64,000 nt of DNA from Pelagibacteraceae bacterium AG-404-P07 (lineage in GTDB: Bacteria; Pseudomonadota; Alphaproteobacteria; Pelagibacterales; Pelagibacteraceae), in assembly GCA_003216235.1 (NCBI GenBank), contig QCJE01000002.1, positions 38,246 to 102,245 of the forward strand. The letters are read 5' to 3'. The notes under the pieces were generated by a model that saw only the letters and a list, made by a program, of their open reading frames with translations, searched no databases and was not told the DNA's origin. Below are positions 12,240 through 46,627 of this stretch, one piece after another. Made by a program: the position numbers and the translations under genes. The first letter of the stretch is position 1. Each line of letters begins with the position of its first letter.

Positions 12240-13859
12240 TTACATATTACCATATTTTGGACCACCACCACCTTCTGGTGTAACCCAAGTAATATTTTGA
12301 GAAGGTTCTTTAATGTCACAAGTTTTACAGTGAATACAGTTTTGAGAATTAATCACAAATTTATTTAAACCATTTTCATTTTGCACTTCATATACACCTG
12401 CTGGACAATATCTTTGTGCAGGTTCATCAAACTTTTCTAAAGTATAGTTTATCGGTAATGATGGGTCTTTAAGTTTTAAGTGAACTGGTTGATTATCAAC
12501 ATGATTTGTACCTGTTAAATAAACCGAGCTTGTCTTATCAAAAGTAATTACATTATCAGGTTTTGGATACTCTATTTTTGGCATTTCACTTGCTAATTTT
12601 AAAGTTTCGTGATCGGCATGTTTGTGTTTTAAAGTCAAAGGTAATTTTCCTCTAAACAATATTTGGTCAATACCAGTAAATATAATACCTAAAATTAATC
12701 CCCAGCTGAAACTTGGCTTAACATTTCTGGCTTCATAGAGCTCTTTATATAGCCAGCTTTTATTAAATTTTTCCTCAAAGATTGATAAATTTTTGTTATT
12801 TTTGATGTGATCAAAAATTGTTTCTGCAGCAATAATTCCACTTTTCATTGCAGTATGCGATCCTTTAATTTTTGGCATATTTAAAGTTCCTGCATCACAA
12901 CCAACTAATAACGCTCCTGGCATAAACATTTTTGGTAAACTTTGAAAACCTCCCTCTATTAATGCCCTAGCCCCATATGAGATTCTTTTTCCACCTTCAA
13001 TTATCTTTTTAATAGCTGGGTGTGTTTTAAATTTTTGAAATTCATCAAAAGGTGATAAATGAGGATTTTTATAATCTAAACCAATAACATAACCTAAAAA
13101 AATTTGTTTGTTTTCCGCATGATACATAAAACTTCCACCATAAGTTTGATTATCTAAAGGCCATCCTGCTGTGTGCATTACCAAACCTTCCTCATGATTT
13201 TTTTCATCTATTTCCCAAATTTCTTTGAAACCTATTCCATATTGTTGTGGGTCTTTATTTTTATCAAGTTCAAACTTTTTTATCAATTCTTTTCCAAGGT
13301 GTCCTCTGCAACCTTCAGCAAAAACAGTAACTTTACCTAAAAGCTCTATTCCTGGTTCAAAACTATCTTTTTTGTTTCCATCTTTATCAATGCCCATATC
13401 CTGTGTTGCAACACCTTTAACTGAACCATCTTCGTTATATATAATTTCACTAGCTGGAAATCCGGGAAAAATTTCAACACCTAACGCTTCAGCTTGTTCA
13501 GCAAGCCACCTACATAAATTTGCAAGACTTATAATATAATTTTTATGATTTTGTTGCACATTAGGTAATAACCAAGTCGGCCAGCTTAATGATTTATTTT
13601 TTCCAAGAAATAAAAATCTTTCTTTACTTACCTTTGTTTTGATTGGAGAATTTAATTCTTTCCAATTTGGAATCAATTCATCCAAAGCTCTTGTTTCAAA
13701 AACATTTCCAGATAAAATATGAGCTCCAATTTCAGAAGCCTTTTCTAATAAGCAAACATTTAAATTAGGATCTAATTGTTTAAGTTTTATCGCCGTAGAC
13801 AAACCTGAAGGTCCACCTCCTACAATAACTACATCATATTCCATTGTCTCTCTGGACAT
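12240..13859 (-). CDS. Electron-transfer flavoprotein:ubiquinone oxidoreductase (ETF-QO)
   Basis: VVIVGGGPSGLSTAIKLKQ; C-terminal ferredoxin CIHCKTCDIKEPSQNITWVTPEGGGGPKYGNM. Confidence 0.95.
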   Translation of the reverse strand: MSRETMEYDVVIVGGGPSGLSTAIKLKQLDPNLNVCLLEKASEIGAHILSGNVFETRALDELIPNWKELNSPIKTKVSKERFLFLGKNKSLSWPTWLLPNVQQNHKNYIISLANLCRWLAEQAEALGVEIFPGFPASEIIYNEDGSVKGVATQDMGIDKDGNKKDSFEPGIELLGKVTVFAEGCRGHLGKELIKKFELDKNKDPQQYGIGFKEIWEIDEKNHEEGLVMHTAGWPLDNQTYGGSFMYHAENKQIFLGYVIGLDYKNPHLSPFDEFQKFKTHPAIKKIIEGGKRISYGARALIEGGFQSLPKMFMPGALLVGCDAGTLNMPKIKGSHTAMKSGIIAAETIFDHIKNNKNLSIFEEKFNKSWLYKELYEARNVKPSFSWGLILGIIFTGIDQILFRGKLPLTLKHKHADHETLKLASEMPKIEYPKPDNVITFDKTSSVYLTGTNHVDNQPVHLKLKDPSLPINYTLEKFDEPAQRYCPAGVYEVQNENGLNKFVINSQNCIHCKTCDIKEPSQNITWVTPEGGGGPKYGNM

Positions 13860-13882: not shown

Positions 13883-14836
13883 TTATTTTTGTATAGTGTT
13901 TAATTTGTTCAATTCCTCTAAGAATTGAGGAAGAGCTTCAAAAAGGTCTGCTTCAAGCCCATAATCTGCAACACTAAAGATAGGTGCCTCACCATCTTTA
14001 TTAATTGCAACAATCACCTTACTTTCTTTCATTCCAGCTAAATGTTGAATAGCCCCTGAAATTCCTACTGCAATATATAAATCAGGAACTACAACTTTTC
14101 CTGTTTGACCGACTTGATGGTCATTGCTTATATAACCTGCATCAACTGCTGCTCTTGATGCGCCAATAGCAGCATTCAATTTATCAGCAAGAGATGTAAT
14201 TAATTTAAAATTATCTCCACTTTGCATACCCCTTCCACCGGAAACAACAACTCTAGCAGTTCCAAGTTCAGGTCTATCAGATTTGACTTCTTCTCTTTTA
14301 ATAAATTTTGTTTGTCCAAACTCACCGCTTGGTTCTGCTTTTTCAATAGGTGCCGATCCACCAGAACTCTCACAAGGGTCAAAAGACGTTGGTCTTATTG
14401 TAACACATTTTTTAGGATCTTTACTTTTTACTGTTGCAAAAGCATTTCCAGCATAAATTGGCCTCAAAAAAGTATCAGGTGATATAACTTTAGTAATATC
14501 ACTGATTTGTGAAGTGTCTAAAGCAGCAGCAATTCTTGGCATTAAATTTTTTCCAAATGTATTTGCTGAACAAACAATATGCGAATAATTTTCAGCAAGT
14601 TTAACAATTACCGGTGAAAAATTTTCTGCAACAAAATTTTCATAATAAGGAGCCTCTACTTGAATTACTTTTTTAATTATTGGCAATTCTGAAAGTGCTT
14701 TTGAAGCATCTCCACAGTTTTGACCAACTATTACTGCATGAACATCAGCATCAATTTGTGAAGCTGCATTTGCAGCATTTAGAGTAAAAGGTTTGAGTTC
14801 TTTATTATTATGTTCTGCTATTAATAAAACTGACAT
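13883..14836 (-). CDS. etfA: Electron transfer flavoprotein alpha subunit
   Basis: ARVVVSGGRGMQSGDNF, GQTGKVVVPDLYIAVGISGAIQHLAGMKESKVIVAINKD. Confidence 0.95.
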   Translation of the reverse strand: MSVLLIAEHNNKELKPFTLNAANAASQIDADVHAVIVGQNCGDASKALSELPIIKKVIQVEAPYYENFVAENFSPVIVKLAENYSHIVCSANTFGKNLMPRIAAALDTSQISDITKVISPDTFLRPIYAGNAFATVKSKDPKKCVTIRPTSFDPCESSGGSAPIEKAEPSGEFGQTKFIKREEVKSDRPELGTARVVVSGGRGMQSGDNFKLITSLADKLNAAIGASRAAVDAGYISNDHQVGQTGKVVVPDLYIAVGISGAIQHLAGMKESKVIVAINKDGEAPIFSVADYGLEADLFEALPQFLEELNKLNTIQK

Positions 14837-15586
14837 TTAAATCACCTTTGCTTCGTTTTTTAATTTTTGCACTAACTCAGCCACACTTGAAACTTTAATA
14901 CCTGCTTTTCTTTTTGGTGGCTCTTCTACTTTAGTTTGCTCGATTCTAGGAGATGTATCTACTCCTAAATCTGACGCATTTATTTGTTCAATTGGTTTCT
15001 TCTTGGCCTTCATTATATTAGGTAATGAAGCGTATCTTGGTTCATTAAGCCTTAAATCACATGTAACTATTGCAGGTACATTTATTTCAATTGTTTCTAG
15101 ACCTTCATCAATTTCTCTTGTTACCTCTAATGATTTATCTTTTACTTCTATTTTAGATGCGAAAGTTGCTTGAGGCCAATTAAGTAACGCACTTAACATT
15201 TGTCCTGTTTGATTGCAATCATCATCAATTGCTTGTTTACCCATAAAAACTAAATCAGGTTTTTCTTTTTCAACTATTTTTTGTAACAATTTAGAAACAG
15301 CTAATGGTTCTAAAATCCCATCTGCTTTTATAAGAATACCTCTATCAGCCCCAACCGCCAATGCTTTACGAACGGTCTCTTGTGCTTTTTCTTCACCAAC
15401 ACTAACAGCTATTACTTCTGTAGCTTTTCCAGCTTCTTTTATTTTAACAGCTTCTTCTATTGCATTATCATCAGGTGGATTAGTTGACATCTTAACATTG
15501 TCAGTGACAACACCAGTATTGTCCTCTTTAACTCTTACCTGTACGTTATAATCAATAACTCTTTTAACTGCGACTAAAATTTTCAT
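14837..15586 (-). CDS. etfB: Electron transfer flavoprotein beta subunit
   Basis: [42 protein letters not shown]. Confidence 0.95.
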
Positions 15587-18018
15587 TAAGCTCTCAATAA
15601 TTTATTTTCAACATCGTATGGACTTTCCTCTAAAATTGTAGCCTCATACATTTTTCCTAATATATCAACTGTAAGTTTTTCTCCCACATTTGCTAATTCT
15701 GGTTTAACCATTGCTAGTGCTATAGATTTATCCAATCTAAATCCATACTCACCACCAGTTGCTCTTCCAATTACCTTATTGTCTTTGTAAATAGGATTAT
15801 TACCTAATACATCAGAGTCAGTCGTATTATGAACTTCTAATGTTACTAATTTATTATCAAAACCTTTTTCTCTCCATTTATTTAAAGCTTCTAAACCAAT
15901 AAAGTTACCTTTGTTAGGATGAATAAATCTATCTAAGCCTGACTCGTAGGGCGAATATTCAATAGATAATTCAGTACCTACAAGTTTATAAGATTTTTCT
16001 ACTCTTAAACTATTCATTGCTCTAATACCAAAAGGTTTGATCCCTAATTCTTTGCCAGCTTCCATTAATTTATCAAAAATATGATTTTGATATTCAATTG
16101 GATGATGTAACTCCCACCCAAGTTCTCCAACAAAATTAACTCTCATAGCATTTACAGGAGCATATCCAACATTAACATTTTTAGCTGTGAGCCATTTAAA
16201 ATTTTCGTTTGAAAAATCATCTGTTGAAACTTTTTGCATCAGTTGTCTAGATTTAGGACCTGCCACAACTAATACACCATTACTGTTTGTAAGATCCTCA
16301 AATATAACCGATCCATCAGTTGGCATCCATTTTTGAATCCAATCATGATCTAATCTTAAATTTGCTCCTGCAGACACAAGATAATAACTATTTTCAGCTT
16401 CTTTCATTATTGTAAATTCTGAGTGCACACCCCCTTTAGTATTAAGAGCATGACATAAATTTATTCTACCAATTTTTTTAGGAAGTTTATTTGCTACCAA
16501 ATAATCCAAAAATTCCTCAGCTTTTGGACCTTTAATTCTGCATTTTGCAAATGCTGTCATATCTAATAAGCCAACATTTTCCTTAACGTTTTGACATTCT
16601 TTTTTAATTGCATCAAACCATTTTGATCTTCTAAAAGACCAATCATCTTTTTGCTCCATGCCATCAGTTGCAAAAAAGTTGGGTCTTTCCCATCCAAATT
16701 TTTGTCCAAATACTGCTCCTAAATTTTTCATTCTTTCATAACAAGGTGAAGTTCTTAAAGGCCTCGCGGCTGGTCTTTCTTCATCTGGATAATGAACAAT
16801 AAAAACATGGCTGTAAGCTTCTTCATTTTTAGCTTTTAAATAAGATTTAGTTGCATAATTTCCATAACGTCTAGGTTCAACACCAAGCATATCAATTGTT
16901 GGTTCACCATCTACAATCCACTCAGCTAATTGCCAACCTGCACCTCCAGCTGCAGTTATTCCAAAACTATGTCCTTCATTAATCCAAAAATTTTTTAATC
17001 CCCAAGCAGGACCAACTATAGGATTGCCATCTGGTGTATAACAGATTGCTCCGTTATAAACTTTTTTTACACCTACTTCTCCAAAAGCAGGAACACGATG
17101 TATAGCACCTTCTATGTGTGGTGCGAGTCTATCTAAATCTTCTTGGAATAATTCATATTCAGAATTTTTTGATGGTCCTTCAACATAACAAGCCGGAGCT
17201 CCATCTTCATAAGGTCCCAAAATTAATCCACCAGCCTCTTCTCGCATATACCATCTGCTATCACTATCTCTCAAAACTCCCATTTCTGGAAGTCCGTCTT
17301 TTTTTCTTTTTTGAATTTCAGGATGTGGCTCTGTTACAATGTATTGATGTTCGACAGGTATAACTGGAATGTCTAATCCAACCATTTCACCAGTTTGGCG
17401 TGCGAAATTACCTGAACAAGAGATTATATGTTCACATTCAATTGTACCTTTGTCTGTTTCAACAATCCAGCCATCTTTAGTTTGTTTCATTGCTAAGACA
17501 GTTGTGTTTCTATAAATCTCTGCTCCCATATTTCTTGCGCCTGTTGCAAGAGCTTGAGTTAAATCAGCAGGTTGAATGTATCCATCTTCTGGGTGTTGAA
17601 TAGCTCCAACTAAATCATCTGTATGACATAAAGGCCAAATTTCTTTTACTTGTTGGGGTGTTAAAAATTTCACATCAACACCGATTGTTTTAGCTACACC
17701 AGCGTATTGATGATATTCATCCATTCTATCTTTAGTGCTTGCTAAACGAATATTTGATACAATACTAAATCCTACATTCTTTCCAGTTTCTTCTTCTAAT
17801 TTTTTATAAAGGTCTACTGCATACTTGTGAAGTTGTCCTACAGAGTAACTCATATTAAACAATGGTAATAATCCGGCAGCATGCCAAGTTGAACCAGAGG
17901 TTAATTCTTTTCTTTCAACAAGAACTACATCAGACCAACCTTTTTTTGCTAAGTGGTAAAGAGCACTTACTCCTACAACCCCACCACCAACAACAACAAC
18001 TTTTGTTTTAGATTTCAT
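15586..18018 (-). CDS. Dimethylglycine/sarcosine dehydrogenase-like protein (DAO + GcvT domains)
   Basis: [31 protein letters not shown]-terminal GcvT region [35 protein letters not shown]. Confidence 0.9.
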
Positions 18019-20488: not shown

Positions 20489-20863
20489 TTATTTAAGTTT
20501 CCCTTCTTTTCTCATTTTGGCTCTTATTTTAGTTGCTGAAATTTCTTGAATTTCTTTAGAAAGTTCAATTTCTTCAATTTTATAACCCACACCTCTACCA
20601 TAACAAATATTAGTAATATTTGGCACCATCATAATCTTGAAATGTCCCTCAAACTCTGGGTTCAATCTATCTTCGATATTTTTTTTTACTGTCTCAAAAT
20701 CAAATGGATTGTCATCAACTCCCTGAACGTCTCTAATTTGAATGCAAACCTGGCCCGTTTTTTTTATAATTTCTTTAAATAAAGTATAATGACCATCGTG
20801 AAACGGTTGCCATCTTCCCAACATTTGTGCAGTTGGTTTTTTATTATCCCACTTGTAAGTCAT
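20489..20863 (-). CDS. Cytidylyltransferase-fold nucleotidyltransferase
   Basis: GRWQPFHDGHYTLFKEI (HxGH-type) and ISATKIRAKMRKEG. Confidence 0.75.
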   Translation of the reverse strand: MTYKWDNKKPTAQMLGRWQPFHDGHYTLFKEIIKKTGQVCIQIRDVQGVDDNPFDFETVKKNIEDRLNPEFEGHFKIMMVPNITNICYGRGVGYKIEEIELSKEIQEISATKIRAKMRKEGKLK

Positions 20864-21270
20864 TATTTTATCTCCTTTAATATTTTTGGTGCCCAGTTTT
20901 TAGCATCTTGAGTAGTAACATGAAAGTCATACTTATCTGGTTTAACAAACATTTTATTAGTATCATCAAATCTTCCTTCTTTTATCGTGTCCATCCAAAT
21001 TATATAATCTGCTGGGAATAAACTTCTTGCTTCAGGTGTAGGACAAATAAAGTCTGCTACAACATAACTTCCATCTTGTTTCATCTTAACAGCAAACTCA
21101 GCCATTCTTTTTGATTGTCTTTTTCTTCCTTCTTCAGAAAAATCCCAATCATTAGCTTCTTTTCGAACCTCATCTGCATTCAATCTTTTTGCTTTTAACA
21201 TTGGAGCTAACTCATTTGCTAAAGTTGTTTTGCCAGATCCAGGTAATCCCATAACTAAAATAATCTTCAT
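20863..21270 (-). CDS. P-loop kinase, adenylylsulfate-kinase-like
   Basis: MKIILVMGLPGSGKTTLANELAPMLKAKRLNADEVR; VADFICPTPEAR. Confidence 0.7.
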   Translation of the reverse strand: MKIILVMGLPGSGKTTLANELAPMLKAKRLNADEVRKEANDWDFSEEGRKRQSKRMAEFAVKMKQDGSYVVADFICPTPEARSLFPADYIIWMDTIKEGRFDDTNKMFVKPDKYDFHVTTQDAKNWAPKILKEIK

Positions 21271-22496
21271 ATTAAATTATTTGCTACCCATTTATGAAAC
21301 TGATGAGTAGGTTGATCCATAATAGGTGAAAAGTTTCCACCATTGTAAACTGGTGAGTTTCTTCCATCTTGCATCCCTTCAATTGCATTTATGTCTTCTA
21401 ACATAACATCTTTCCAAAATCTTGAATTTTCTTTTCTTAATTCTTTTAACTCTTCTCCTTGAGCACTTTCATTTCCAACATAATATATTTGCATATGTTC
21501 TTTTGTTTTATTCATTGCCAAAGGTTCTAACCAAAAAACATAAAAGTGATCTAAATGTAAACCTATCATTACATTTGGAAATAGAGCAATATACTCTGAA
21601 TGTTTCAACATACCTTTGTCCCAATTAGGGAAAGTATTAAATTTTTTATTTCCTTTGACAGGTTGTTCATATTTCCTGCTTCCTTGACCAGCAAATCTAT
21701 TAGGTAGTCCTTGTATATGATAATGATCGTCTATATTCGAAACTTTATTTAATTCTGGATGAATTGTTGGTAAATGATAACTCTCACAATAATTTTCAAT
21801 TGCAAATTTCCAATTACACTTTACTTCTAAATTAAAATAACCATAATCATTTGAATAAACTAAAGATTTGTAATCTTCTTTATTTATAAATTTTAACCAT
21901 CTATTTTCCAAGGGTTTAATATATTCATCAAATTCAATTTCATTTGAATTGATATTAACAAAAATTATATCCATCCAAACTATAGTTTTAACTTCCTTTA
22001 AATTATTTTTTGCTTTATCAAATTTCTCTGATTGATGATTGTTTAGCCCGCCAATATGTGGAGTAGCTAAAAGTTTTCCGTTAAAATCATAAGACCAGGA
22101 GTGATAAGGACATCTAATTACATTTTTTAAGGCACATGATTTATCTAAAAGTTTATAACCTCTATGGCTACAAACATTGTGGAATACTCGAATCTTCTTT
22201 TCTTTATCTCTTAATATAATAAGTGGTACCCCCAGCAGATTGTGTGGTCTGGCATCTCCAATATTTGGTACAGAGCTTGCTACACCAATGACTGTCCATT
22301 TATTGAAAAAAATCTTCTCTTTTTCATACGCTAAATAATCATTATTTATGTAACACTCATTTGGTAGGCCATTAGCTACTTCTATTGGTTTATCAACATT
22401 ATTTAGTTTCTTAATATCTAGTATTTCTGAGAGAGGTTTTTTTTTGAGATTTTGATCCACAAAAAAAATTATCATGAGCATATTTTTTGGCAACAA
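21267..22496 (-). CDS. Rieske non-heme iron oxygenase alpha subunit (aromatic-ring-hydroxylating type); true start probably downstream
   Basis: Rieske CSHRGYKLL...CPYHSWSYDFNGKL; mononuclear iron motif ENYCESYHLPTIHPEL. Confidence 0.9.
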   Translation of the reverse strand: MLPKNMLMIIFFVDQNLKKKPLSEILDIKKLNNVDKPIEVANGLPNECYINNDYLAYEKEKIFFNKWTVIGVASSVPNIGDARPHNLLGVPLIILRDKEKKIRVFHNVCSHRGYKLLDKSCALKNVIRCPYHSWSYDFNGKLLATPHIGGLNNHQSEKFDKAKNNLKEVKTIVWMDIIFVNINSNEIEFDEYIKPLENRWLKFINKEDYKSLVYSNDYGYFNLEVKCNWKFAIENYCESYHLPTIHPELNKVSNIDDHYHIQGLPNRFAGQGSRKYEQPVKGNKKFNTFPNWDKGMLKHSEYIALFPNVMIGLHLDHFYVFWLEPLAMNKTKEHMQIYYVGNESAQGEELKELRKENSRFWKDVMLEDINAIEGMQDGRNSPVYNGGNFSPIMDQPTHQFHKWVANNLI

Positions 22497-22514
22497 ATTT
22501 CGCCATGCTTTTAA

Positions 22515-23288
22515 ATGAATTTCTTTGACAGCTTTTTTAAAAAATATAATGATCGGGTTATGAAATTTTCTTTAGAAATAGGTCCTCAAACTGATTTATC
22601 AACAGTGCCCCCTGTAAATGATGTTTATATTACTATGTTGCCTGGTGGAGATTATAAGGAAACTGCTCAACAAGCGGTTGAGTTGGTTAAAAAAGGATTT
22701 AATCCAGTTCCTCATTTTCCGGCGAGATCAATGAAAGATGAAATAGAGCTAAAAGATTATGTTTCTAGATGTAAAGATGGAGGTGTAAAACAAATTCTTG
22801 TTATTGGCGGTGGTCGAGAACCGTTAGGTAAATTTGATAGCTCATTCCAACTATTGGAGACTGGTTATTTTGAGAAGATGACAATAGGAATTGCTGGACA
22901 CCCAGAGGGGAGTCCTGATATATCCGAATCAAATTTAGAAAAAGCTATGATAAATAAAAAGCCTTATGCTGATTATATTGTAACTCAATGGTTACTTGAC
23001 CCTCAGCCTATTATAGACTTTATATCTAAACAAAGCGTACCAGTGCATGTAGGAATTACTGGGCCATTAAAAATATCTAGCTTAATAAAATTTGCTAATA
23101 TAGTTGGGGCGAAAAATTCTATTAACTTTCTTAAATCTAATTTTACTAAGGCGTTAGATTTATTGAAACCTAAAGACCCTAATGAACTAATTGGGAAAGT
23201 TAAATCGCATACAGATTTTTTTCACATTTATACATTCGGCGGCTTGAAGGAAACTAACAAGTGGTTGAAGGAGAATGGTTATGTCTAA
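22515..23288 (+). CDS. Methylenetetrahydrofolate reductase (MetF)-like protein
   Basis: FSLEIGPQTD, NPVPHFPARSMKDEIELKDYVSRCKDGGVKQILVIGG. Confidence 0.75.
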   Translation: MNFFDSFFKKYNDRVMKFSLEIGPQTDLSTVPPVNDVYITMLPGGDYKETAQQAVELVKKGFNPVPHFPARSMKDEIELKDYVSRCKDGGVKQILVIGGGREPLGKFDSSFQLLETGYFEKMTIGIAGHPEGSPDISESNLEKAMINKKPYADYIVTQWLLDPQPIIDFISKQSVPVHVGITGPLKISSLIKFANIVGAKNSINFLKSNFTKALDLLKPKDPNELIGKVKSHTDFFHIYTFGGLKETNKWLKENGYV

Positions 23289-24639
23289 AGAATTTGACTA
23301 TACTAAACTAAAACATGTTACTTCAGTTGATCAGTCAGATCGACAAGTACCATACAATTTAAGACAAAGTGGGCCAACAAAAGTTGAGATGTTAATTTCA
23401 ACAAGGGTTAGAAAATCACCTTATTGGCATTTATCAATGCAAGCAGGTTGCTGGAGAGCAACTGTTTACAATCGAATTTATCATCCAAGAGGATATGTAA
23501 AACCAGAAGATGGTGGAGCAATGGTTGAATATGATGCAATTGTAAATCACGTTACAATGTGGAACGTTGCTGTTGAAAGACAAATAAGAGTTAAAGGTCC
23601 AGATGCAGAAAAATTTACAGACTATGTTATTACTAGGGATGCTACCAAAATTTCTCCCATGAGAGCCAGATACGTAATTTTATGTAATGCTTATGGTGGA
23701 GTTTTAAATGATCCAATTCTCTTAAGAATTTCAAAAGATGAATTTTGGTTTTCTTTATCAGATTCAGACATTGGAATGTACCTTCAAGGTGTTAATGCTG
23801 ATGGAAGATTTAATTGTACAGTGGAAGAAATAGATGCTTGTCCTGTACAAATCCAAGGTCCAAAATCTAAAGCATTAATGAAAGATTTATGTGGAAATCA
23901 AGTTGATTTTGATAACATGCCTTTTTATGGTCTAGCAGAAGTTAAGGTTGGGGGAAGAAGTTGTGTAATTTCACAATCAGGTTTCTCTGGTGAAGCTGGA
24001 TATGAAATTTATTTAAGAGATGCTACACTGTATGCAGAAGATATGTGGAATGCAGTTCTTGAAGCTGGAAAAAAACATAAACTTATGGTTATTGCACCAG
24101 CACACCATAGAAGAATTCAAGCTGGAATTCTTTCTTGGGGTCAAGACATGGATCAACAACATAATCCTTTTCAATGTAATTTAGGTTATCAAGTTTCTTT
24201 ATCTGGAAAAGGAGAATGGAATAAAAAAGCTGATTATGTTGGTAAAGCTGCATTAGAAAAAATGGGTAAAGAACTTAAAGATGGTAAAAAACCATACAAA
24301 TTACAATTAGTTGGTTTTGAACTTGGAGGAAAACCAATTGAGGATTATGCACCAGATTTTTGGTTAATTTCAAGTGAAAATGGTGGTGATCCAATAGGTT
24401 TTATAACTTCTCCTTGGTATCACCCAGAGAAAAAAACAAATATTGCAATGGGATATGTACCTTTTGATGGAACTTTAAATGCAAATGGATTTCCTAAAGG
24501 AAAAGTTGGAACAAAATATAAAGTTCATTTACCTGAAAAATACTCAGAAACTCCAGGTAAACCTGTAGATGCTGTTATAGTGGATATTCCTTTCAAAGAA
24601 TCTTTTAACGCAAATACAAGAGAAGTTGTAAAAGGTTAA
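23275..24639 (+). CDS. GcvT-family THF-dependent methyltransferase (DmdA/LigM-like demethylase)
   Basis: WNVAVERQIRVKGPDAEKFTDYVITRD, QSGFSGEAGYEIYL, AP.HHRRIQAGILSWGQDM; overlaps MetF-like stop. Confidence 0.75.
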   Translation: MVMSKEFDYTKLKHVTSVDQSDRQVPYNLRQSGPTKVEMLISTRVRKSPYWHLSMQAGCWRATVYNRIYHPRGYVKPEDGGAMVEYDAIVNHVTMWNVAVERQIRVKGPDAEKFTDYVITRDATKISPMRARYVILCNAYGGVLNDPILLRISKDEFWFSLSDSDIGMYLQGVNADGRFNCTVEEIDACPVQIQGPKSKALMKDLCGNQVDFDNMPFYGLAEVKVGGRSCVISQSGFSGEAGYEIYLRDATLYAEDMWNAVLEAGKKHKLMVIAPAHHRRIQAGILSWGQDMDQQHNPFQCNLGYQVSLSGKGEWNKKADYVGKAALEKMGKELKDGKKPYKLQLVGFELGGKPIEDYAPDFWLISSENGGDPIGFITSPWYHPEKKTNIAMGYVPFDGTLNANGFPKGKVGTKYKVHLPEKYSETPGKPVDAVIVDIPFKESFNANTREVVKG

Positions 24640-24647
24640 ATTTTTTA

Positions 24648-24674
24648 GGAGGGGTTTTAAAACCCCTCCCTTTT
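24648..24674 (+). terminator. Intrinsic terminator
   Basis: GGAGGGGTTTTAAAACCCCTCC followed by cTTTT, directly after 23275-24639. Confidence 0.85.
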
Positions 24675-34085: not shown

Positions 34086-34673
34086 TTATATGGATTCAAA
34101 TCCAAACTCTAAAGACGCATCAGTTATAGAGTGATACAAAGACTCACCAAAACTTCTTAAAGCAAATATTCTTACTTTATATGGACTTTCATCAATCATA
34201 TCTATTGTTAGAGCTATACCATTATAAATAGAATTTATTGAATTATTTTTTTCTAAAGTATTAAAATTGAAAGGACACCCTTTCTTTAATACTTCTTTAA
34301 CTTCTTTTCCTTCTAATTCAATTATAGCTTTTGAATGAGATAAATCAGTTACGGCAAAATCTTTTTCTTTAAAATTTTCTAAAATATTTTTTAGTAAATC
34401 TTTTTTTGTTGAAACCAAAAGCCAATTTTTTGGTCCATTCCACAATATTCTTGTATCTTTATTACTGATTACACTTAATGGTTTATCTTTTAATTTCAAA
34501 CTATCAATATCAATACTCTCAATTGAAATATTAGAATTTTTATATTGAACTATTTGGACTATGAGTAAATTTTTTATCTCTGAAATTTTTAAAAGATTAT
34601 TATCATTTTTGTTTTGATAATCACCAAATTTACCTGTTGTGTGAACATTTGCTAAAGCTGATATCGAACTCAT
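34086..34673 (-). CDS. soxG: Sarcosine oxidase gamma subunit
   Basis: [29 protein letters not shown]; follows soxA. Confidence 0.85.
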
Positions 34674-37666
34674 GACCTTACCCTTTCACCTTTTGGATCA
34701 ACATAATGTGAAGAAACTATCTCAACAGGAATTATCTTATTTTTAAGAGGAGACATTACAAATAATTTTTCACCAATCATATTTTTTCCATCTTTCAATA
34801 TGGCTAATGAAAATGGGTTATTATGTTCAACGCTCCAACATGAAGCTGAAATGTAACCTAATTTTGGATTTGGCAATGGCGCGTTAGAATCTTTAACTAA
34901 ATGTGATCCTTCTGGAATACTTGTTTTTTTATCTAATGGAACAACACCAACAACTTTCTGTCTATCTTCAGCTGTAAATGCTTCTCTAATTAGAGATCGC
35001 TTTCCAATGAAATCTTTCTTTTTACTTAATAATCCTTCAAGAGAATTATCATAAGGTATTGTTCTTCCATCAAGTTCAGATCCTGCAACGTGACCCATTT
35101 CTATTCTAAGAGTTGATAGTGCCTCTGTTCCATATGGTTGAATCTCAAATTCTTGACCAGCTTCAATGATTTTTTCCCACATAAAATTACCATTATCAGA
35201 CTCAACATTTACTTCGTAAGCAAGTTCTCCTGAAAATGAAATTCTAAAAATTCTAGCTTTTACTCCAAATAAATCTGCTTCCATGTAGCCCATAAATGGT
35301 AATCCTTCCTTAGACACATCGGAATTTGGAAATAGTTTTTGCAATAAATCCCTTGATTTTGGTCCAGCAATAGCGGCTCCAGCCCATTGCTCTGTTGTTG
35401 AAACTACGTTAACATTTAGCTCTGGCCATACCAGTTGCAAATAATATTCCAAATGTGAGAGAACATTAGCTGCTTGAGCAGTCGTAGTTGTCATATGATA
35501 ATGATTTTCTGAAATTCTTGTTGTTGTTCCGTCGTCCATAACAATGCCATCTTCCCGTAACATGACTCCGTATCTTGCTTTTCCAATTGGTAACTTTAAC
35601 CATGCATTTGTGTAAACTCTGTTAAGTAGTTCTGCTGCATCTGGACCTTTGATGTCTATTTTACCTAATGTAGTTACATCACAAACTCCTACGTTTGCTC
35701 TCACATTTTTTGCTTCTCTTTTTGATGCTTCAAATAAATTTTCATCTCCCTGTTTATAATATCTAGGTCTTAACCAAACTCCTGCATCGACAAATACTGC
35801 ATTATTTTTTTCATGCCACGAGTGCATTGGAGACTTTCTTGTTGGCTTTGAGTGTTTTCCAATCTCTCTTCCAACAATTGCACCTATCGAAACTGGCGTA
35901 TATGGAGGCCTAAAAGTAGTGTGACCAACATTTGGTACTACTTTATTTTCAATTTTTGATACTAATTGCAAACCATTAAGGTTACTTGTTTTACCTTGGT
36001 CTGTTGCCATACCAAGGGTGGTATATCTTTTTACATGTTCGATTGATCTATAACCTTCTTTTAAAGCTATTTCTATATCCGAAACGGCGACGTCATTTTG
36101 AAAGTCCAAAAATCTTTTATAATTTTTACCCTTAGGAAGGGGCACACACCAAAATTTATCATGGACGGTTGATTTTTTTTCAACAACATTTGGAAAAGAA
36201 ATTTTATTATCATTATTAGTAATTTTTTTTGCCAATTCATGACCAGTTTCAAATGAACTTTTTAAAGTCTCATTTAAAGTGTAAATCCCGTTCGCAGCTC
36301 CCAATGTTTTTTCATTTTGTTTTGAAATTCCTGGAACAAATGCATCAATATCTTCATTAAACTTTGTTTTATTTCCTGATTGTGACGCTAAGTGAATAGT
36401 AGGTGTCCAATAACCAGAAACACAAATACAATCACATTTTATATTTTCTATTACACCAAGTTCTTCTTTATTATCAGAAATTTTCGCAATATCTGCTGAT
36501 CTTACTTTTTTATAACCTTGTGCAGCCACTACCACATAAGAAAACTTGATATTAATTCCTAAATTTTTTGCTTCATCAATTATTTCTGATTGAGGATTTT
36601 TTCTTGTGTCTAAAATAATTGTCTCAACTCCATTTTTTTTAAATTCAATAGCTGTTTCATATCCACTGTCATTGTTAGTGAATATTAAAGGATTTTTTCC
36701 AACTAACACTCCATAAACTTTTAAATATTCTTTTGCAGCAGAAGATAGTATTACACCTGGGGTATCATTATTGCCAAAAACTATTGGTCTTTCAATTGAA
36801 CCTGATGAAATTAGAACTTCCTTAGCTCTGATGTACCATAGTCTTTGTTTTGGATGAAATTTTTTTGTTTCTGGTAAATGATCACTAATTCTTTCTGACA
36901 TTACCAACATATTATGATCATAATAGCCAAAAACCTGCGATCTATTTTTAACAGTTACATTTGGCATTTCTTTCAGTTCACTGATAATTCCTTCAGCCCA
37001 TTCTTTGCCCGATTTATTTCCAATATTTACTTCACTTGTAAGTAATGTTCCGCCAAATCTAGATTTATCTTCAGCCAGAATTACTCTTGCTCCATTCTTC
37101 GCAGCAGCATAAGCGCTTGCTAAACCTGACGGACCTGAGCCTGCAATTAATAAATCACAATACTCATACTTGTGTTCATATCTTTCTTTGTCATGCTCTA
37201 TAGATGCAACTCCAAGTCCTGCTGCTTTTCGAATAAATGGCTCATAAATTTTATACCAAAAACTTTTTGGCCACATAAAAGTTTTGTAATAAAATCCAGC
37301 AGGTAAAAAAATCTTTAAGAAATTATTTATTGCTCCCACATCAAAATTTACACTAGGCCAACAATTTACACTTTTTGCCTCTAATCCCTCAAAAAGCTCC
37401 TGTTCTGTAGCTTTTATGTTCGGTTCAGTTTCACCATTCCTGTATAATTGAACTATTGCATATGGTTCGTCTACTCCTGCTCCAAAAAAACCTCTAGGTC
37501 TATGATATTTAAAGCTTCTTCCAACTAAATGAACACCATTTGCAATTAAAGCTGAGGCTAAAGTATCTCCTTCATATCCAAAATAATCTTTACCATTAAA
37601 TTTAAATGAGAGTTTTTTATTTCTGTTAATCAATCCAATATTTTCTAATCTAAAATTTTGTGACAT
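34670..37666 (-). CDS. soxA: Sarcosine oxidase alpha subunit (heterotetrameric; GcvT C-terminal domain)
   Basis: [58 protein letters not shown]. Confidence 0.93.
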
Positions 37667-37935: not shown

Positions 37936-39192
37936 TTATGAAATCCAAGTTTTTGTGCCAAGTCCCTTTTCATCTAACAAGTGACCTGTATTAAATCTAT
38001 TTAAATTATATCCAGCATTTAATTCATGAACTCTATCTTGAGCAATAGTGTGAGCAAAAGTCCAACCAGACGCTGGTGTTGCTTTAAAACCACCATAACA
38101 CCAACCGCAATTTAAATATAATCCTTCAATATGAGTTTTGTCTATAATTGGTGAACCATCCATAGACATGTCCATTATTCCACCCCAAGTTCTAAGCATT
38201 TTTAATTTACTCAAGAAAGGCATCATTGCAATCCCTTCTGTTAAAACATGTTGAAGTGTTGGAAGGTTTCCTCTTTGCGCATAACTATTATAACCATCTA
38301 AATCACCACCCATAACCATTTCACCTTTGTCCGATTGACTAATATAAAAATGTCCAGCACCAAAAGTAACTACTTTATCCAAAACTGGTTTTACTGGTTC
38401 AGAAACACATGCTTGTAAAAGATGAGTTTCAATAGGTAATGTCATATTTAATTTTTCAGCTAAAATATTTGTGCTTCCTGCAACACATAATCCAATTTTT
38501 TTTGCTTTAATGTTTCCACGTGATGTTCTTACTCCCTGAATTTTTCCCCCTGAAATATCAAATCCAATTACCTCACAATTTTGTATTATATCAACACCCA
38601 TTGAGTCTGCTTGACGAGCGTAACCCCAAGCTACCGCATCATGTCTTGCTGTACCAGCGCTTGGTTGCATGAGTCCACCAAAAATTGGAAATCTTACATT
38701 TTCAGAAAAGTCTGCCATGGGGATAATTTCTTTTACTTGTTCTCTGTTTAAAAGTTCTGCATCAATTCCATTTAAACGCATTGAATTTCCTCTTCTTGCA
38801 TAAACATTCATTTGAGCATCAGAGTGTGCAAGATTAATAATTCCCCTAGGTGAGAACATAACGTTATAATTTAAATCTTGGCTCATCTTTCTCCATAGAT
38901 CCATTCCAAATTCACTGAATAATGCATTATCATCATACATATAATTTGACCTGATTATTGTAGTATTACGTCCAACATTGCCACCACCGATCCATCCTTT
39001 TTCTATGATAGCAACATTTGTAATATTATGTTCTTTTGCAAGATAATAAGCAGTGGCTAAGCCATGACCTCCGCCTCCAATAATAACTACATCATATTCA
39101 CTTTTTGGAGTTGGGTCTTTCCAAGCCAAATCCCAATTTTCGTGATTGGAAAAAGCATTTTTAACTAGACTAAATATTGAGTATTTTTGCAT
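37936..39192 (-). CDS. soxB: Sarcosine oxidase beta subunit
   Basis: YDVVIIGGGGHGLATAYYLAKEHNITNVAIIEKGWIGGGNVGRNTTIIRSNY. Confidence 0.95.
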   Translation of the reverse strand: MQKYSIFSLVKNAFSNHENWDLAWKDPTPKSEYDVVIIGGGGHGLATAYYLAKEHNITNVAIIEKGWIGGGNVGRNTTIIRSNYMYDDNALFSEFGMDLWRKMSQDLNYNVMFSPRGIINLAHSDAQMNVYARRGNSMRLNGIDAELLNREQVKEIIPMADFSENVRFPIFGGLMQPSAGTARHDAVAWGYARQADSMGVDIIQNCEVIGFDISGGKIQGVRTSRGNIKAKKIGLCVAGSTNILAEKLNMTLPIETHLLQACVSEPVKPVLDKVVTFGAGHFYISQSDKGEMVMGGDLDGYNSYAQRGNLPTLQHVLTEGIAMMPFLSKLKMLRTWGGIMDMSMDGSPIIDKTHIEGLYLNCGWCYGGFKATPASGWTFAHTIAQDRVHELNAGYNLNRFNTGHLLDEKGLGTKTWIS

Positions 39193-39319: not shown

Positions 39320-41002
39320 ATGAGCGATGTAAAATCAGATATTCAAATAGCAAGAGAAGCAAAAATGCAGCCAATCAAAGATATATTGGCTACGATAAAT
39401 GTACCAGATGAAAGCTCAGCGTTTAGCCCAATGGGCAGACATATAGCCAAAATAAATTTAGAATATTTAAAAACCTTAAAAAAAAAAGATGGAAAATTAG
39501 TTTTAGTTACTGCAATAACCCCAACTCCTGCTGGAGAGGGAAAAACTACCACATCTGTAGGGCTTAATGATGGATTAAATAAAATCGGAAAAAAATCTAT
39601 AGTATGTTTAAGAGAGCCCAGTCTTGGTCCATCATTTGGATTAAAAGGTGGTGCTGCTGGAGGAGGTTATGCTCAAGTTGTTCCTATGGAACAAATCAAT
39701 TTACATTTCACTGGAGATTTTCATGCAATAACTTCTGCTCATAATTTATTATCTGCTCTTATTGATAATCATATTTATTGGGGTAATAAACTAAACATCG
39801 ATGTAAGACGAGTTTCTTGGAGAAGAGTAATGGACATGAATGATAGATCTTTAAGATCAATCATCGTAGATCTAGGAGGTGTAGCAAATGGATATCCACG
39901 TCAAGACAGTTTTGATATTACAGTTGCCTCAGAATTAATGGCTATTTTCTGTCTAGCAACAGATCTAAAAGATTTAGAAAATAGGATTGCAAATATAACA
40001 ATTGGATATACTAGAGAAAAAAAACCTGTACAGGCTAAAGATTTAAATGCTCAAGGTCCAATGACAGTTTTGCTTAAAGAAGCAATTAGACCAAATGTAA
40101 CTCAAACTTTAGAAAATAATCCTGCGATTATTCATGGAGGTCCTTTTGCCAATATTGCTCACGGTTGTAATTCTGTAATAGCTACAAAGGCAGGACTTAA
40201 ATTAGCAGATTATGTTGTTACAGAAGCTGGATTTGGCGCAGATCTTGGGGCAGAAAAATTTTTAAATATTAAATGTAGAAAATCAGGATTGAAGCCTGAT
40301 TGTGTTGTTATTGTTGCAACCATAAGAGCTCTTAAAATGCATGGTGGTGTATTAAAAGATGAATTAAAAAACGAAAACGTAAAAGCTTTAAAGAAAGGTT
40401 TGGTTAATCTAGAAAGACATATAAATAATACGCGAAAATTTGGATTACCAGTTACGATTGCAGTAAATCATTTTATTACCGACACAGAGGAAGAAATGAA
40501 AACTTTGCTTGATTTTTGTAAAACTCAGGGAGTTAAAGCCTCAAAATGTACTCACTGGTCAAATGGAAGTGAAGGTACTAAAGAATTAGCGAAAAATGTT
40601 GTTGAAATATGTGAAGATAAAAAAAATACATTTAAATATTTATACGAAGATAGTCTTTCATTGTTTAAAAAGATTGAGAAAATTGCACAAGAGATTTACC
40701 ATGCAAGTGAAGTTGTAGCTGATACAAAAGTAAGACAACAATTAAAAGATTTTGAGGAGAAAGGTTACGGTAAACTTCCAGTTTGTATAGCAAAAACTCA
40801 ATATAGTTTTTCAACAGATCCAAATTTAAAAGGTGCACCTACTGGTCATGTATTGCCAGTGAGGGAAGTTAGACTATCATCTGGTGCAGAGTTTATTGTA
40901 GTTGTTTGCGGTGAAATAATGACTATGCCTGGTTTGCCTAGAGTTCCTGCAGCTGATTCTATAAAACTTAACGATAAAGGTGAAATTGAAGGGTTATTCT
41001 AA
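39320..41002 (+). CDS. fhs: Formate-tetrahydrofolate ligase
   Basis: [51 protein letters not shown]. Confidence 0.97.
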
Positions 41003-43442: not shown

Positions 43443-45596
43443 TTAATCAATACCTAGGTGTTTTTTTCTTTTTTGAACGTAAGCTCTGATTAAGTTATCA
43501 AATATTAAAGCGATAAAGGCTACGCATATACCAAGTGTCAATCCAATACCTGCACCTTTTTTATCTGATAATGCTTTTAAAATATATTGACCTAAATCCT
43601 CTGTACCAATGAATGCTCCAATAATTACCATGAATAATGCAAATACTATTGTTTGGTTTAAGCCAAGCATCATATGTGGGAATGCCAAAGGAAATTCTAT
43701 TTTAGTCAATCTTTGAAATTTATTCACACCTGACATAGTTGCTGCATCATGCAGTCCAGCCGGAACACTTCTAAGTCCCTCAATTGTATACCTAGTAGCA
43801 GGTATGGTTGCATAAACTATAACTGCAATTAATACTGATGTATCAGTTATACCAAATAACATCATTACAGGTATTAAATATACAAAAGATGGAAATGTTT
43901 GAAAGATATCACATACACCTAACATAAATTTTGCAGATTGCTTATTCTGAAAACATAAGGTTCCAACTGTAAATCCTATTATACAAGACACAATTACACC
44001 AAAAGTTGCCATATACGCAGTTACTAAAGCCCTATCCCACCATGGACTAAAAGCGATAAATAAAGTTAAAGCACAAACAACTAAGGCAGAACGAACTCCA
44101 CCAATTAAATATCCCGCACCAACAACTAAAACTATTGTAGCTATTGCAGGCATTCTTAAATACAGCGCCCTCATGGGTTGAAGTACCTCTTGAATCAACC
44201 AAGTGTTAAATGCCTTGATATATACAAAAAAGGTTTCAAAAATCCAATCAACACCTTTGTTCCAAAAATCAGCTGTTGAGATTCCTTTATTATGTGGAAT
44301 TTCAAATAAGTAATTGAATGTCCCTTTGAACAAAAAGGTTCCAATGTAAGCGAGTAATAATCCAATCACTACCGTCGTAGCAAAAAATATTAAATTTTTA
44401 TTTCTTTGAAAGAATGTAAGGTTACCAAAATAATCCTCTTGCTTATTTGCCCAAGCTAAAGACATTTTATCTAATAATATTGCAATCAAACTAATGCACA
44501 AGCCTGCTTCAAGTGCTAACCCAATGTTCAATTGATTTAATGCTAATAATAAATTAAATCCTAAACCTTTTGCACCAATAAAAGCTGAAATAACTGCCAT
44601 TGAAAAACAAACCATTATAACTTGGTTAACTCCAATTAAGATATCTCTTCTTGCAGTTGGAATTAATACTTTAAACATAAGTTGAAAGTTATTACATCCA
44701 CTCATTCTACCAGCTTCAATCACTTCCGGTGGTACAGCTCGTAAACCAAGTATAGTTAATAATATCATTGGTGGCACAGCAACAACCATTGTTATTATTA
44801 CTGCAGCATGATCACCTACCCCAAAAAGAACTAACGCAGGAACTAAAACCGCATATTGAGGCATTGTCTGCATCACTAACAATATTGGATATAATGCTTT
44901 TTCAACACGTTTACTTTTAAATGCTGCTATCCCTAAACCTAAACCAAAAATAAATGATAAAGGGGCTGCAACTAGTATAAATGATAGAGTTTGCATTGAA
45001 GGTTTCCATTGACCAAATATAGAAATGTAAACCATCGTTAGACCTGCAAACAAAGCTAAACCTTTGCCACTTAATTTATAAGAAAGTAAAATTGCACCTG
45101 CTGCAACAATTGTCCACGGTAACCCTGGTAGTTCAGCCCAAGGATTCTTATCTATCCAATCCCAACTACTAAAGGCCACTATAGTTTCAAGACCTCCCAA
45201 TAAAATCTCTCTTATTAACTGTATTAAAAAAGTCATAAATGCAGTTATGTTTCTACTTATCTGTAAGACAAGAGGGCGACTTTTAAATTCTTGAGTATCT
45301 TCATTCCAAACTTCAATTGGCATCCATTCATTCATTAAGAAAAATAATGAGTCGTTTATCCAAATAGGTAACCATCCAAGTAATGGGGGTAATCTCCAAA
45401 AAACATCAAAAGCATAGTATCTTACTTCTTTACCTAAAAATATGTAGCTACTTTGATTGGGATCTTTTACAAATTCTGCTTGACCTCTAATAAATTTATA
45501 TGTTTCAGGAACTTCGATTGCAAAACATAATGCAAAAAATATAACTAATAAAAATAACCATTGAAATGTTTTTGGATATTTTTTGAAAAATTCCAT
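43443..45596 (-). CDS. tmoW: Glycine-betaine/TMAO-type ABC transporter permease (fused double permease)
   Basis: 717 aa with two BPD permease EAA regions (AGRMSGCNNFQLMFKVLIPTA; AATMSGVNKFQRLTKIEFPLA). Confidence 0.88.
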   Translation of the reverse strand: MEFFKKYPKTFQWLFLLVIFFALCFAIEVPETYKFIRGQAEFVKDPNQSSYIFLGKEVRYYAFDVFWRLPPLLGWLPIWINDSLFFLMNEWMPIEVWNEDTQEFKSRPLVLQISRNITAFMTFLIQLIREILLGGLETIVAFSSWDWIDKNPWAELPGLPWTIVAAGAILLSYKLSGKGLALFAGLTMVYISIFGQWKPSMQTLSFILVAAPLSFIFGLGLGIAAFKSKRVEKALYPILLVMQTMPQYAVLVPALVLFGVGDHAAVIITMVVAVPPMILLTILGLRAVPPEVIEAGRMSGCNNFQLMFKVLIPTARRDILIGVNQVIMVCFSMAVISAFIGAKGLGFNLLLALNQLNIGLALEAGLCISLIAILLDKMSLAWANKQEDYFGNLTFFQRNKNLIFFATTVVIGLLLAYIGTFLFKGTFNYLFEIPHNKGISTADFWNKGVDWIFETFFVYIKAFNTWLIQEVLQPMRALYLRMPAIATIVLVVGAGYLIGGVRSALVVCALTLFIAFSPWWDRALVTAYMATFGVIVSCIIGFTVGTLCFQNKQSAKFMLGVCDIFQTFPSFVYLIPVMMLFGITDTSVLIAVIVYATIPATRYTIEGLRSVPAGLHDAATMSGVNKFQRLTKIEFPLAFPHMMLGLNQTIVFALFMVIIGAFIGTEDLGQYILKALSDKKGAGIGLTLGICVAFIALIFDNLIRAYVQKRKKHLGID

Positions 45597-45598
45597 AA

Positions 45599-46627
45599 TT
45601 AATTATTATTTTTTCTTCCTCCAAAAACTGTGTTGATTATTTTAGCTGGGTTAATAGAACCAATAATATTATTATTATCATCAACCACAGCTACTGATTT
45701 TTCTTGAGTAAGAATTTTTTCAGCTACATTCTCTATAATTTCATCTTTTGAAACTTTTAAATCGCCAAGATTATCTTTAGTGTTGTCCATTACATCTTCA
45801 ATTAATAAAACTTTTTCTCTAGGTACTTCCTCAGTAAACTTTCTTACATATTCAGTTGCTGGATTTAATACAATATTAGCTGGAGTATCTAATTGCTCAA
45901 TTATACCATCTTTCATAATTGCAATACGATCAGCAAGTTTCAAAGCCTCATCAAAATCATGAGTAATAAACATAATTGTTTTTTGTAATTTTTCCTGAAG
46001 TCTTAAAAACTCATCTTGCATTTCTTTTCTAATTAATGGATCTAAAGCAGAGAAAGGTTCATCTAAAAACCATATATCCGGTTCTACAGCTAATGATCTT
46101 GCAATTCCTACTCTTTGTTGTTGTCCTCCTGATAACTCCCGTGGAAAATAATTTTCTCTGCCATCAAGTCCAACCAACTTAACCATGTCCATTGCTTTAT
46201 TTATGCTATCTTCAGTTTTGACACCTTTAATTTGAAGTGGAAAAGCTATATTTTCAACTACAGTTTTGTGTGGAAGCAAAGCAAAACTTTGAAAAACCAT
46301 TCCCATTTTATTTCTTCTTAGATCAATGAGGTCTTTGTTGTTTAATTGTAATAAATCCTGGCCTTCTATAAAAATTTTTCCACCTGTTGCATCAGTTAAT
46401 CTAGAAATACATCGTAATAAAGTTGATTTTCCCGAACCAGACAAACCCATAACAACCAGCATCTCTCCTTTAGAAACTTCAAATGAAGCATTATTAACTC
46501 CTACAATACATCCATTTTCTTGAAAGGTTTTAGCATCAACATTGCCATTTGAATCTTTAAGCATCTTTTCAGCATTTGCTCCAAAGATTTTATAAACATT
46601 TTCACATTTGATTACTGGTTCAGACAT
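45599..46627 (-). CDS. tmoV: Glycine-betaine/TMAO-type ABC transporter ATPase with CBS domains
   Basis: MGLSGSGKSTLLRC, LSGGQQQRVGIARSL, C-terminal CBS-like segment. Confidence 0.88.
   Translation of the reverse strand: MSEPVIKCENVYKIFGANAEKMLKDSNGNVDAKTFQENGCIVGVNNASFEVSKGEMLVVMGLSGSGKSTLLRCISRLTDATGGKIFIEGQDLLQLNNKDLIDLRRNKMGMVFQSFALLPHKTVVENIAFPLQIKGVKTEDSINKAMDMVKLVGLDGRENYFPRELSGGQQQRVGIARSLAVEPDIWFLDEPFSALDPLIRKEMQDEFLRLQEKLQKTIMFITHDFDEALKLADRIAIMKDGIIEQLDTPANIVLNPATEYVRKFTEEVPREKVLLIEDVMDNTKDNLGDLKVSKDEIIENVAEKILTQEKSVAVVDDNNNIIGSINPAKIINTVFGGRKNNN

Follow-up and report, generated by a model that had tools for sequence, protein, structure and literature searches.

A metF / GcvT-like gene pair of SAR11 bacteria as a candidate folate-dependent betaine demethylation system

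Described demethylation systems and the SAR11 gene pair

In 2011, two adjacent genes of the SAR11 strain HTCC1062 (SAR11_1264/1265, core in SAR11 Ia) were reported to encode a methylenetetrahydrofolate reductase beside a DmdA-related aminomethyltransferase, whose substrate was left unassigned, with methylmercaptopropionate (MMPA) as a guess (Sun et al., 2011; PMC3160333). Both the pair and a suspected demethylation were therefore already in print when the same metF / GcvT-like arrangement was noticed in the DNA described here, a stretch of 64,000 nucleotides (hereafter, the window) from Pelagibacteraceae bacterium AG-404-P07 (contig QCJE01000002.1, positions 38,246 to 102,245). The genome holding it is a Pelagibacteraceae (SAR11) assembly of 937 kb in 42 contigs, and the closest named matches of the window in a contig search are 92-96% identical and all SAR11, the cultured strain HTCC9565 among them. 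Judging from arrangement and family, the window pair would be the orthologs of SAR11_1264 (MetF) and SAR11_1265 (GcvT-like). We lean toward reading the GcvT-like enzyme as a betaine:tetrahydrofolate (THF) methyltransferase with glycine betaine as main donor, and MetF as the enzyme oxidising the resulting methyl-THF. With respect to Sun et al. (2011), betaine is indicated here rather than MMPA, and the family is extended to other alphaproteobacteria and to haloarchaea.

Several described systems resemble the pair. DmdA shares with the GcvT-like protein its fold family, the NDP motif and the folate residues, and a redox-neutral methyl transfer to THF would be expected of both; on the other hand, the two are only about 30% identical and fall into separate clades, and the GcvT-like protein differs in a substrate-contact residue (Phe237 for Trp), an extra conserved N-terminal segment and an obligate MetF partner. 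The MtgB/MtgBCD system with MetF2 would likewise move a betaine methyl onto THF and have it oxidised by a MetF (PMC12478193), but MtgB belongs to an unrelated cobalamin-dependent family (MTTB). BHMT, also from an unrelated family, likewise converts glycine betaine into dimethylglycine, and a BHMT-like gene stands next to or near the Rieske oxygenase gene that accompanies the pair at three SAR11 loci (L039, L042, L047); it requires homocysteine, however, and yields methionine. LigM and DesA are folate-dependent demethylases of the same superfamily that also work with a MetF, but their similarity to the GcvT-like protein is weak and confined to the folate domain, and their substrates and context are different. 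No report of a GcvT-family glycine betaine demethylase was found in the open-access literature, subscription papers lying outside this search.

Among the nitrogen osmolytes of seawater, glycine betaine is a major one, and its most abundant consumer is SAR11. According to the 2025 view, SAR11 takes off the first methyl only via BHMT, which ties this step to methionine demand (PMC12478193). If the folate route is true, SAR11 would, contrary to that proposal, have a second means besides BHMT of demethylating glycine betaine, and could burn all three methyls for energy; a core SAR11 gene open since 2011 would gain a function, and the missing step of the haloarchaeal betaine island would be filled. 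More tentatively, the whole family may represent a direct glycine betaine:THF methyltransferase, independent of cobalamin, homocysteine and oxygen, common to SAR11, to other alphaproteobacteria and to haloarchaea and transferred between Bacteria and Archaea; we regard this wider claim as quite conceivable, short of probable.

Gene structure and protein family of the pair

The core of the locus comprises the following features:

21267-22496, minus strand: alpha subunit of a Rieske non-haem iron oxygenase, GbcA/CntA-like, a divergent optional neighbour (start at 22475 or 22496)
22560-23288, plus strand: short MetF-like methylene-THF reductase, 242 aa, best PDB match 7xg9, proposed to oxidise 5-methyl-THF
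23281-24639, plus strand: GcvT/DmdA-superfamily methyltransferase, about 452 aa, placed by Pfam and its best PDB match (DmdA 3tfh), proposed betaine:THF methyltransferase (open reading frame from 23275)
24648-24669, plus strand: hairpin terminator-like site at the end of the metF / GcvT-like operon

The three open reading frames are present where a sequence-only reading of the window had placed them, and their conservation among relatives is far beyond chance. From sequence comparison, the start of metF is most likely the ATG at 22560 (242 aa) and not the opening of its reading frame at 22515, because upstream of this codon relatives show stops or no homology. This puts metF about 64-85 bp from the Rieske gene, on the opposite strand as described earlier but at a greater distance than the 20-50 bp given there. 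The GcvT-like gene probably starts at the ATG at 23281, and with this start it overlaps metF by 8 bp, so the overlap already noticed holds. Both genes form a bicistronic operon with a divergent Rieske neighbour, and from 24648 onward a GC-rich stem with a T-rich tail makes up the terminator-like hairpin. No RNA match was obtained in an Rfam search of the window.

Pfam detects GCV_T (135.6 bits) in the GcvT-like protein and, just under its cut-off of 25.9, GCV_T_C (25.3 bits, residues 344-440); the best PDB match is DmdA 3tfh (E=7e-41). Scores against curated models reach 225 bits for DmdA (cut-off 410) and 148 for GcvT (cut-off 300), so that DmdA appears by sequence as the nearest relative of known function. 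In a maximum-likelihood tree, the alphaproteobacterial and haloarchaeal GcvT-like sequences form a clade of their own (100/100, stem 0.92), and DmdA (100/99) as well as several other SAR11 and roseobacter paralogs stand apart; the tight clustering with DmdA or GcvT that had been proposed as a check on the demethylation idea was not seen. The catalytic Asp146 (T. maritima D96) and the folate-binding Glu244 (E195) are retained, and 25 of 26 family members carry Phe237 where DmdA has the Trp contacting DMSP (dimethylsulfoniopropionate), a correspondence set through the W-x6-E-x-Y pattern; W171 of DmdA is reported as the key Trp for this substrate (PMC7487153). A separate true GcvT candidate is encoded on contig C3 of the same genome, and by the tests run the protein of the pair is neither GcvT nor DmdA. 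An AlphaFold model built from 28 SAR11 sequences reached a mean pLDDT of 48 and a pTM of 0.34, which makes it an unreliable guide to fold and pocket.

The protein is longer than usual mainly through a conserved N-terminal segment (DQSDRxVPxNLRQSG) and small inserts. Its C-terminal segment had been likened to an extension of the O-demethylase LigM, a likeness that we reject: the region is the ordinary GcvT C-terminal barrel, to which T. maritima GcvT aligns. A LigM/DesA-type O-demethylase acting on methoxyaromatics, with the Rieske oxygenase attacking the aromatic ring, is accordingly hard to credit. The presence of a MetF partner would suit it, as would the best PDB match of that partner, 7xg9, which we take to be the short Sphingobium MetF serving LigM. 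Against it, LigM scores 35 bits (cut-off 580) and DesA 41 (cut-off 800), in both cases over residues 103-273 only, the folate domain; the loci examined showed no recognisable genes for ring cleavage or aromatic compounds, and the Rieske protein is of the CntA/GbcA kind and not VanA-like.

SAR11 orthologs of the GcvT-like protein are 82-95% identical and occur in 63 of 118 SAR11-family genomes, plus one fragment. IMG/VR yielded a single SAR11-like fragment on one contig, with no sign of a phage gene family. Further DmdA-like paralog families exist in SAR11 and relatives (L189, L190, L191, L192, L202, L231-L243), the L202 copy lying on a Phaeobacter plasmid with OsmC, enoyl-CoA hydratase and acyl-CoA synthetase genes.

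The MetF-like protein matches Pfam MTHFR marginally (25.2 bits, cut-off 24), and the phmmer match to the MTHFR structure 7xg9 is clear (E=4.5e-33). Its association with the GcvT-like protein is strict in SAR11: across the 118 genomes the GcvT-like gene was found in 64, the MetF-like gene in 63, and both in 62, the three discordant cases being a gene at a contig end in two genomes and a partial match in the third. Two near-complete SAR11 genomes (G088, G105) keep a DmdA-type match and have neither gene of the pair; MetF therefore goes with the GcvT-like enzyme and not with DmdA. SAR11 lacks MetH and MetE (PMC12478193), which leaves methyl-THF without a methionine outlet, so that MetF would be expected to run oxidatively; 5-methyl-THF oxidation is the natural reading for this MetF.

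The strict coupling to MetF also bears on the possibility that the GcvT-like protein acts by itself as a folate protein, trapping formaldehyde or a methylene group released by the Rieske oxygenase or by dimethylglycine dehydrogenase (DMGDH) as 5,10-methylene-THF, in the manner of the GcvT domain of dimethylglycine oxidase or of Tdm. Such a protein would share the fold family, adjoin oxidative demethylases and retain Asp146 and Glu244, as is the case here; its methylene-THF product, however, would need no MetF, the neighbouring DMGDH-like proteins have a GcvT domain of their own, and the sequence is closer to DmdA than to such domains. We consider this function very improbable.

From the gene structure, family, clade, co-occurrence and betaine-pathway neighbourhoods in Bacteria and Archaea, all directly observed, we infer the substrate, the product, the direction in which MetF runs and whatever role the Rieske protein has as follows. 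Betaine would be bound next to THF in the GcvT-like protein, and N5 of THF would attack a methyl of the quaternary nitrogen, much as has been inferred for DmdA acting on DMSP; this transfer, without redox change as in DmdA with DMSP, would give dimethylglycine and 5-methyl-THF. The MetF-like protein, in the oxidative direction, would convert 5-methyl-THF into 5,10-methylene-THF, which FolD, Fhs and formate dehydrogenase could carry on to CO2, whereas dimethylglycine and sarcosine would be demethylated by the DMGDH-like and sarcosine oxidase (Sox) enzymes encoded nearby. The Rieske oxygenase, which about half the genomes possess, would be an accessory, probably removing a methyl oxidatively from the same or another betaine. 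The folate-linked demethylation with MetF oxidising methyl-THF that the sequence-only reading proposed is thereby well supported, by the strict co-occurrence and by the neighbourhoods in other lineages.

Physiological data from the literature are compatible with this scheme. When HTCC1062 is given methyl-14C glycine betaine, the label is oxidised to CO2 and its incorporation is negligible (PMC3160333), which agrees with the proposal without distinguishing the first methyl from the others. In stationary phase, transcript levels of the pair drop 5- to 10-fold, and in sulfur-limited exponential cells its mRNA is not induced, whereas bhmT is (PMC5069961); this pattern fits energy metabolism better than sulfur assimilation.

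The absence of induction under sulfur limitation also weighs against MMPA (the second step of DMSP demethylation) or DMSP itself as the substrate, as do the separation of the clade from DmdA and the Phe237 replacement of the DMSP-contacting Trp. MMPA is a thioether and a poor methyl donor. The loci examined held no recognisable dmdB/C/D-like cluster, and no recognised sulfur genes adjoin the GcvT-like gene in the haloarchaeal islands described below. Even though DmdA is the closest relative of known function, DddP-like genes stand beside the Rieske gene in several genomes and MMPA was the original proposal (PMC3160333), we judge a sulfur substrate improbable.

Genomic neighbourhoods and the methyl donor

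Glycine betaine is favoured as donor because relatives of the GcvT-like gene in other bacteria and in haloarchaea sit in betaine-degradation clusters. Orthologs with 51-82% identity occur in 17 non-SAR11 alphaproteobacteria, and in 12 of them a DMGDH-like gene lies within about 10 kb, against about 0.36 expected by chance (p ~1e-17, a value that holds only if the genomes are independent; they fall in 11 families, six of which show the linkage). At L173 and L174, the GcvT-like gene immediately precedes DMGDH-Etf-ETFQO-like genes (electron transfer flavoprotein and its quinone oxidoreductase); the gene order is Sox, DMGDH, MetF, GcvT-like at L175 and L176, and Sox, GcvT-like, MetF, Fhs, DMGDH at L186. 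Sarcosine oxidase, MetF or Fhs genes are thus added at several loci (L175, L176, L181, L186).

In a plasmid collection, 16 haloarchaeal records (megaplasmids) carry orthologs with 50-57% identity, and MetF is near the GcvT-like gene in five of the six loci read. These five islands contain, in varying sets, genes for a BCCT transporter, FolD, Fhs, formate dehydrogenase, dihydrofolate reductase, GlyA, IlvA and one or two FAD oxidoreductases of 850 aa, taken as dimethylglycine oxidases and carrying GcvT domains where scanned (L198). Taken together, the islands would encode a path from betaine through dimethylglycine, sarcosine, glycine and serine to pyruvate, with the methyls oxidised via folate. 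For the step from betaine to dimethylglycine, four islands hold no other candidate than the GcvT-like gene; H. marismortui also has a Rieske subunit. Earlier, the presence of BCCT and dimethylglycine oxidase genes had led only to the suggestion that haloarchaea might use betaine (PMC3102087).

Within SAR11, the two genes remain adjacent while what surrounds them varies. At L042 and L047, MetF comes directly after the genes for a permease and an OpuAC glycine betaine-binding protein; on the other side of the pair lie BHMT-like (human BHMT, E=2e-44), DMGDH-like and Rieske genes. The BHMT-like and DMGDH-like genes near the Rieske gene occupy 14475-17920 in L047, 13743-17190 in L042 and 3058-6505 in L039, and these BHMT-like copies are distinct from the 47%-identical BHMT-type proteins of other SAR11 genomes. 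Elsewhere, egtB and egtD (ergothioneine; above curated cut-offs) are directly beside MetF, between it and the Rieske gene in L044 (6438-8617) and in the place of the Rieske gene in L046 (5890-8024). An M24-family gene closest to the DMSP lyase DddP (384 bits, cut-off 600) adjoins the Rieske gene or stands a few genes away (L039 1423-2706, L049 12504-13766, L050-L054), and several of the genomes with this gene also carry, in its vicinity, genes for a HalD/2OG-type oxygenase and a carnitine dehydrogenase-like protein.

Other enzymes for the same step are scarce in these genomes. MtgB-type proteins were not found in 23 of 26 genomes with the GcvT-like gene; for GbcA, the same 26 gave a near-cut-off match in one and a 331-bit relative in another. 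By the classification used, no BHMT-type gene is present in G003, G017, G051, G093, G260, G345, G223, G442, G182, G372 and G131, all of which keep the GcvT-like gene. These BHMT-negative genomes support the betaine reading without proving it, as some could use another enzyme or import dimethylglycine.

Several observations weigh against glycine betaine as the main donor. For this compound, BHMT is already available to some SAR11 strains, HTCC1062 included, and a number of SAR11 neighbourhoods carry the genes for other compounds mentioned above (DddP-like, EgtB/EgtD, carnitine dehydrogenase-like). Betaine context is missing from five of the 17 alphaproteobacterial loci and from one of the six haloarchaeal loci (L199, Haloarcula halophila); with only 11 families behind the 17 genomes, the adjacency counts are not independent. 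The paralogs L191 and L192 (about 35-40% identity) likewise adjoin DMGDH-like genes, and this context therefore marks N-methyl compounds generally, not glycine betaine specifically. Neighbourhood evidence of this kind would not tell glycine betaine from other betaines.

The same mechanism may in this sense act on another N-methyl donor (proline betaine, a carnitine- or choline-derived betaine, hercynine or dimethylglycine), glycine betaine not being the main one. The BHMT of some SAR11 strains, the DMGDH adjacency of L191/L192 and the varied SAR11 neighbours speak for it, the latter including EgtD/EgtB in L044 and L046 and the carnitine dehydrogenase-like and M24 DddP-like genes in L049-L054; BCCT and OpuAC transporters, moreover, are not glycine betaine-specific. 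The bacterial and haloarchaeal clusters nevertheless end at glycine (DMGDH, Sox, GlyA, IlvA), which glycine betaine fits best, and this glycine route is conserved between lineages, unlike the neighbours that point elsewhere. A different main donor is thus unlikely, although it deserves more weight than the sulfur, aromatic or formaldehyde alternatives. Regarding the O-, S- or N-methyl compound originally suggested, demethylation is well supported, an O-demethylase is unsupported, and the substrate is narrowed to a quaternary N-methyl betaine as the most likely class, glycine betaine being our favoured member.

The Rieske oxygenase and other features of the window

The Rieske protein combines Rieske and Ring_hydroxyl_A domains (Pfam), its CxH..CxxH cluster motif is intact, and its best PDB match is the carnitine monooxygenase CntA (E=4e-32); against the curated GbcA model it scores 124.5 bits, below the cut-off of 670. 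Relatives with 58-86% identity occur in 31 pair-bearing SAR11 genomes, at no more than about 8 kb from the pair wherever both are on one contig, and about half of the pair-bearing genomes are without one. The oxygenase is therefore a frequent but dispensable neighbour. An FNR-type NAD-binding reductase (PF00175), the dedicated partner to be expected for GbcA/CntA-type oxygenases, was found in none of 14 SAR11 genomes (G003, G017 and G026 among these), several of them with a Rieske oxygenase, and in 10 of 14 control genomes.

Further genes related to methylated compounds and one-carbon metabolism are distributed along the window:

12240-13859, minus strand: FixC/ETF-quinone oxidoreductase-like flavoprotein, match below curated cut-offs
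13883-14836, minus strand: electron transfer flavoprotein alpha-type subunit, downstream of the DMGDH-like gene
15586-18018, minus strand: dimethylglycine/sarcosine dehydrogenase-like protein (DAO and GCV_T domains), orthologs of which adjoin the GcvT-like gene in other lineages
34670-37666, minus strand: sarcosine oxidase alpha-like protein (SoxA type), 998 aa, with the GCV_T match at window positions 35039-35827 (G000:C2:73284-74072); homologs lie beside the GcvT-like gene elsewhere
37936-39192, minus strand: sarcosine oxidase beta-like flavoprotein (DAO)
39320-41002, plus strand: formate-THF ligase (Fhs; FTHFS E=1e-267), a later C1 oxidation step

The segment 14837-15586 presumably encodes the ETF beta subunit. 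The dmgdh gene of HTCC1062 is SAR11_1253 (PMC3160333), of which the DMGDH-like gene at 15586-18018 is, by position, the probable counterpart. Fhs adjoins the pair or the GcvT-like gene in L046, L048, L057, L181 and L186. Four GcvT-domain proteins are encoded within 36 kb (15586-18018, 23281-24639, 34670-37666 and 49236-51575), and together with an FMO-like flavoprotein encoded at 42104 and genes for ABC transporters at 43443-46627 they give this small genome a region densely packed with genes for methylated compounds.

Directly downstream of the Rieske gene, and kept there in most Pelagibacter relatives, are two very small overlapping genes on the minus strand, one for an APS-kinase-like P-loop protein (20863-21270) and one for a nucleotidyltransferase-like protein with an NMNAT/cytidylyltransferase motif (20489-20863).

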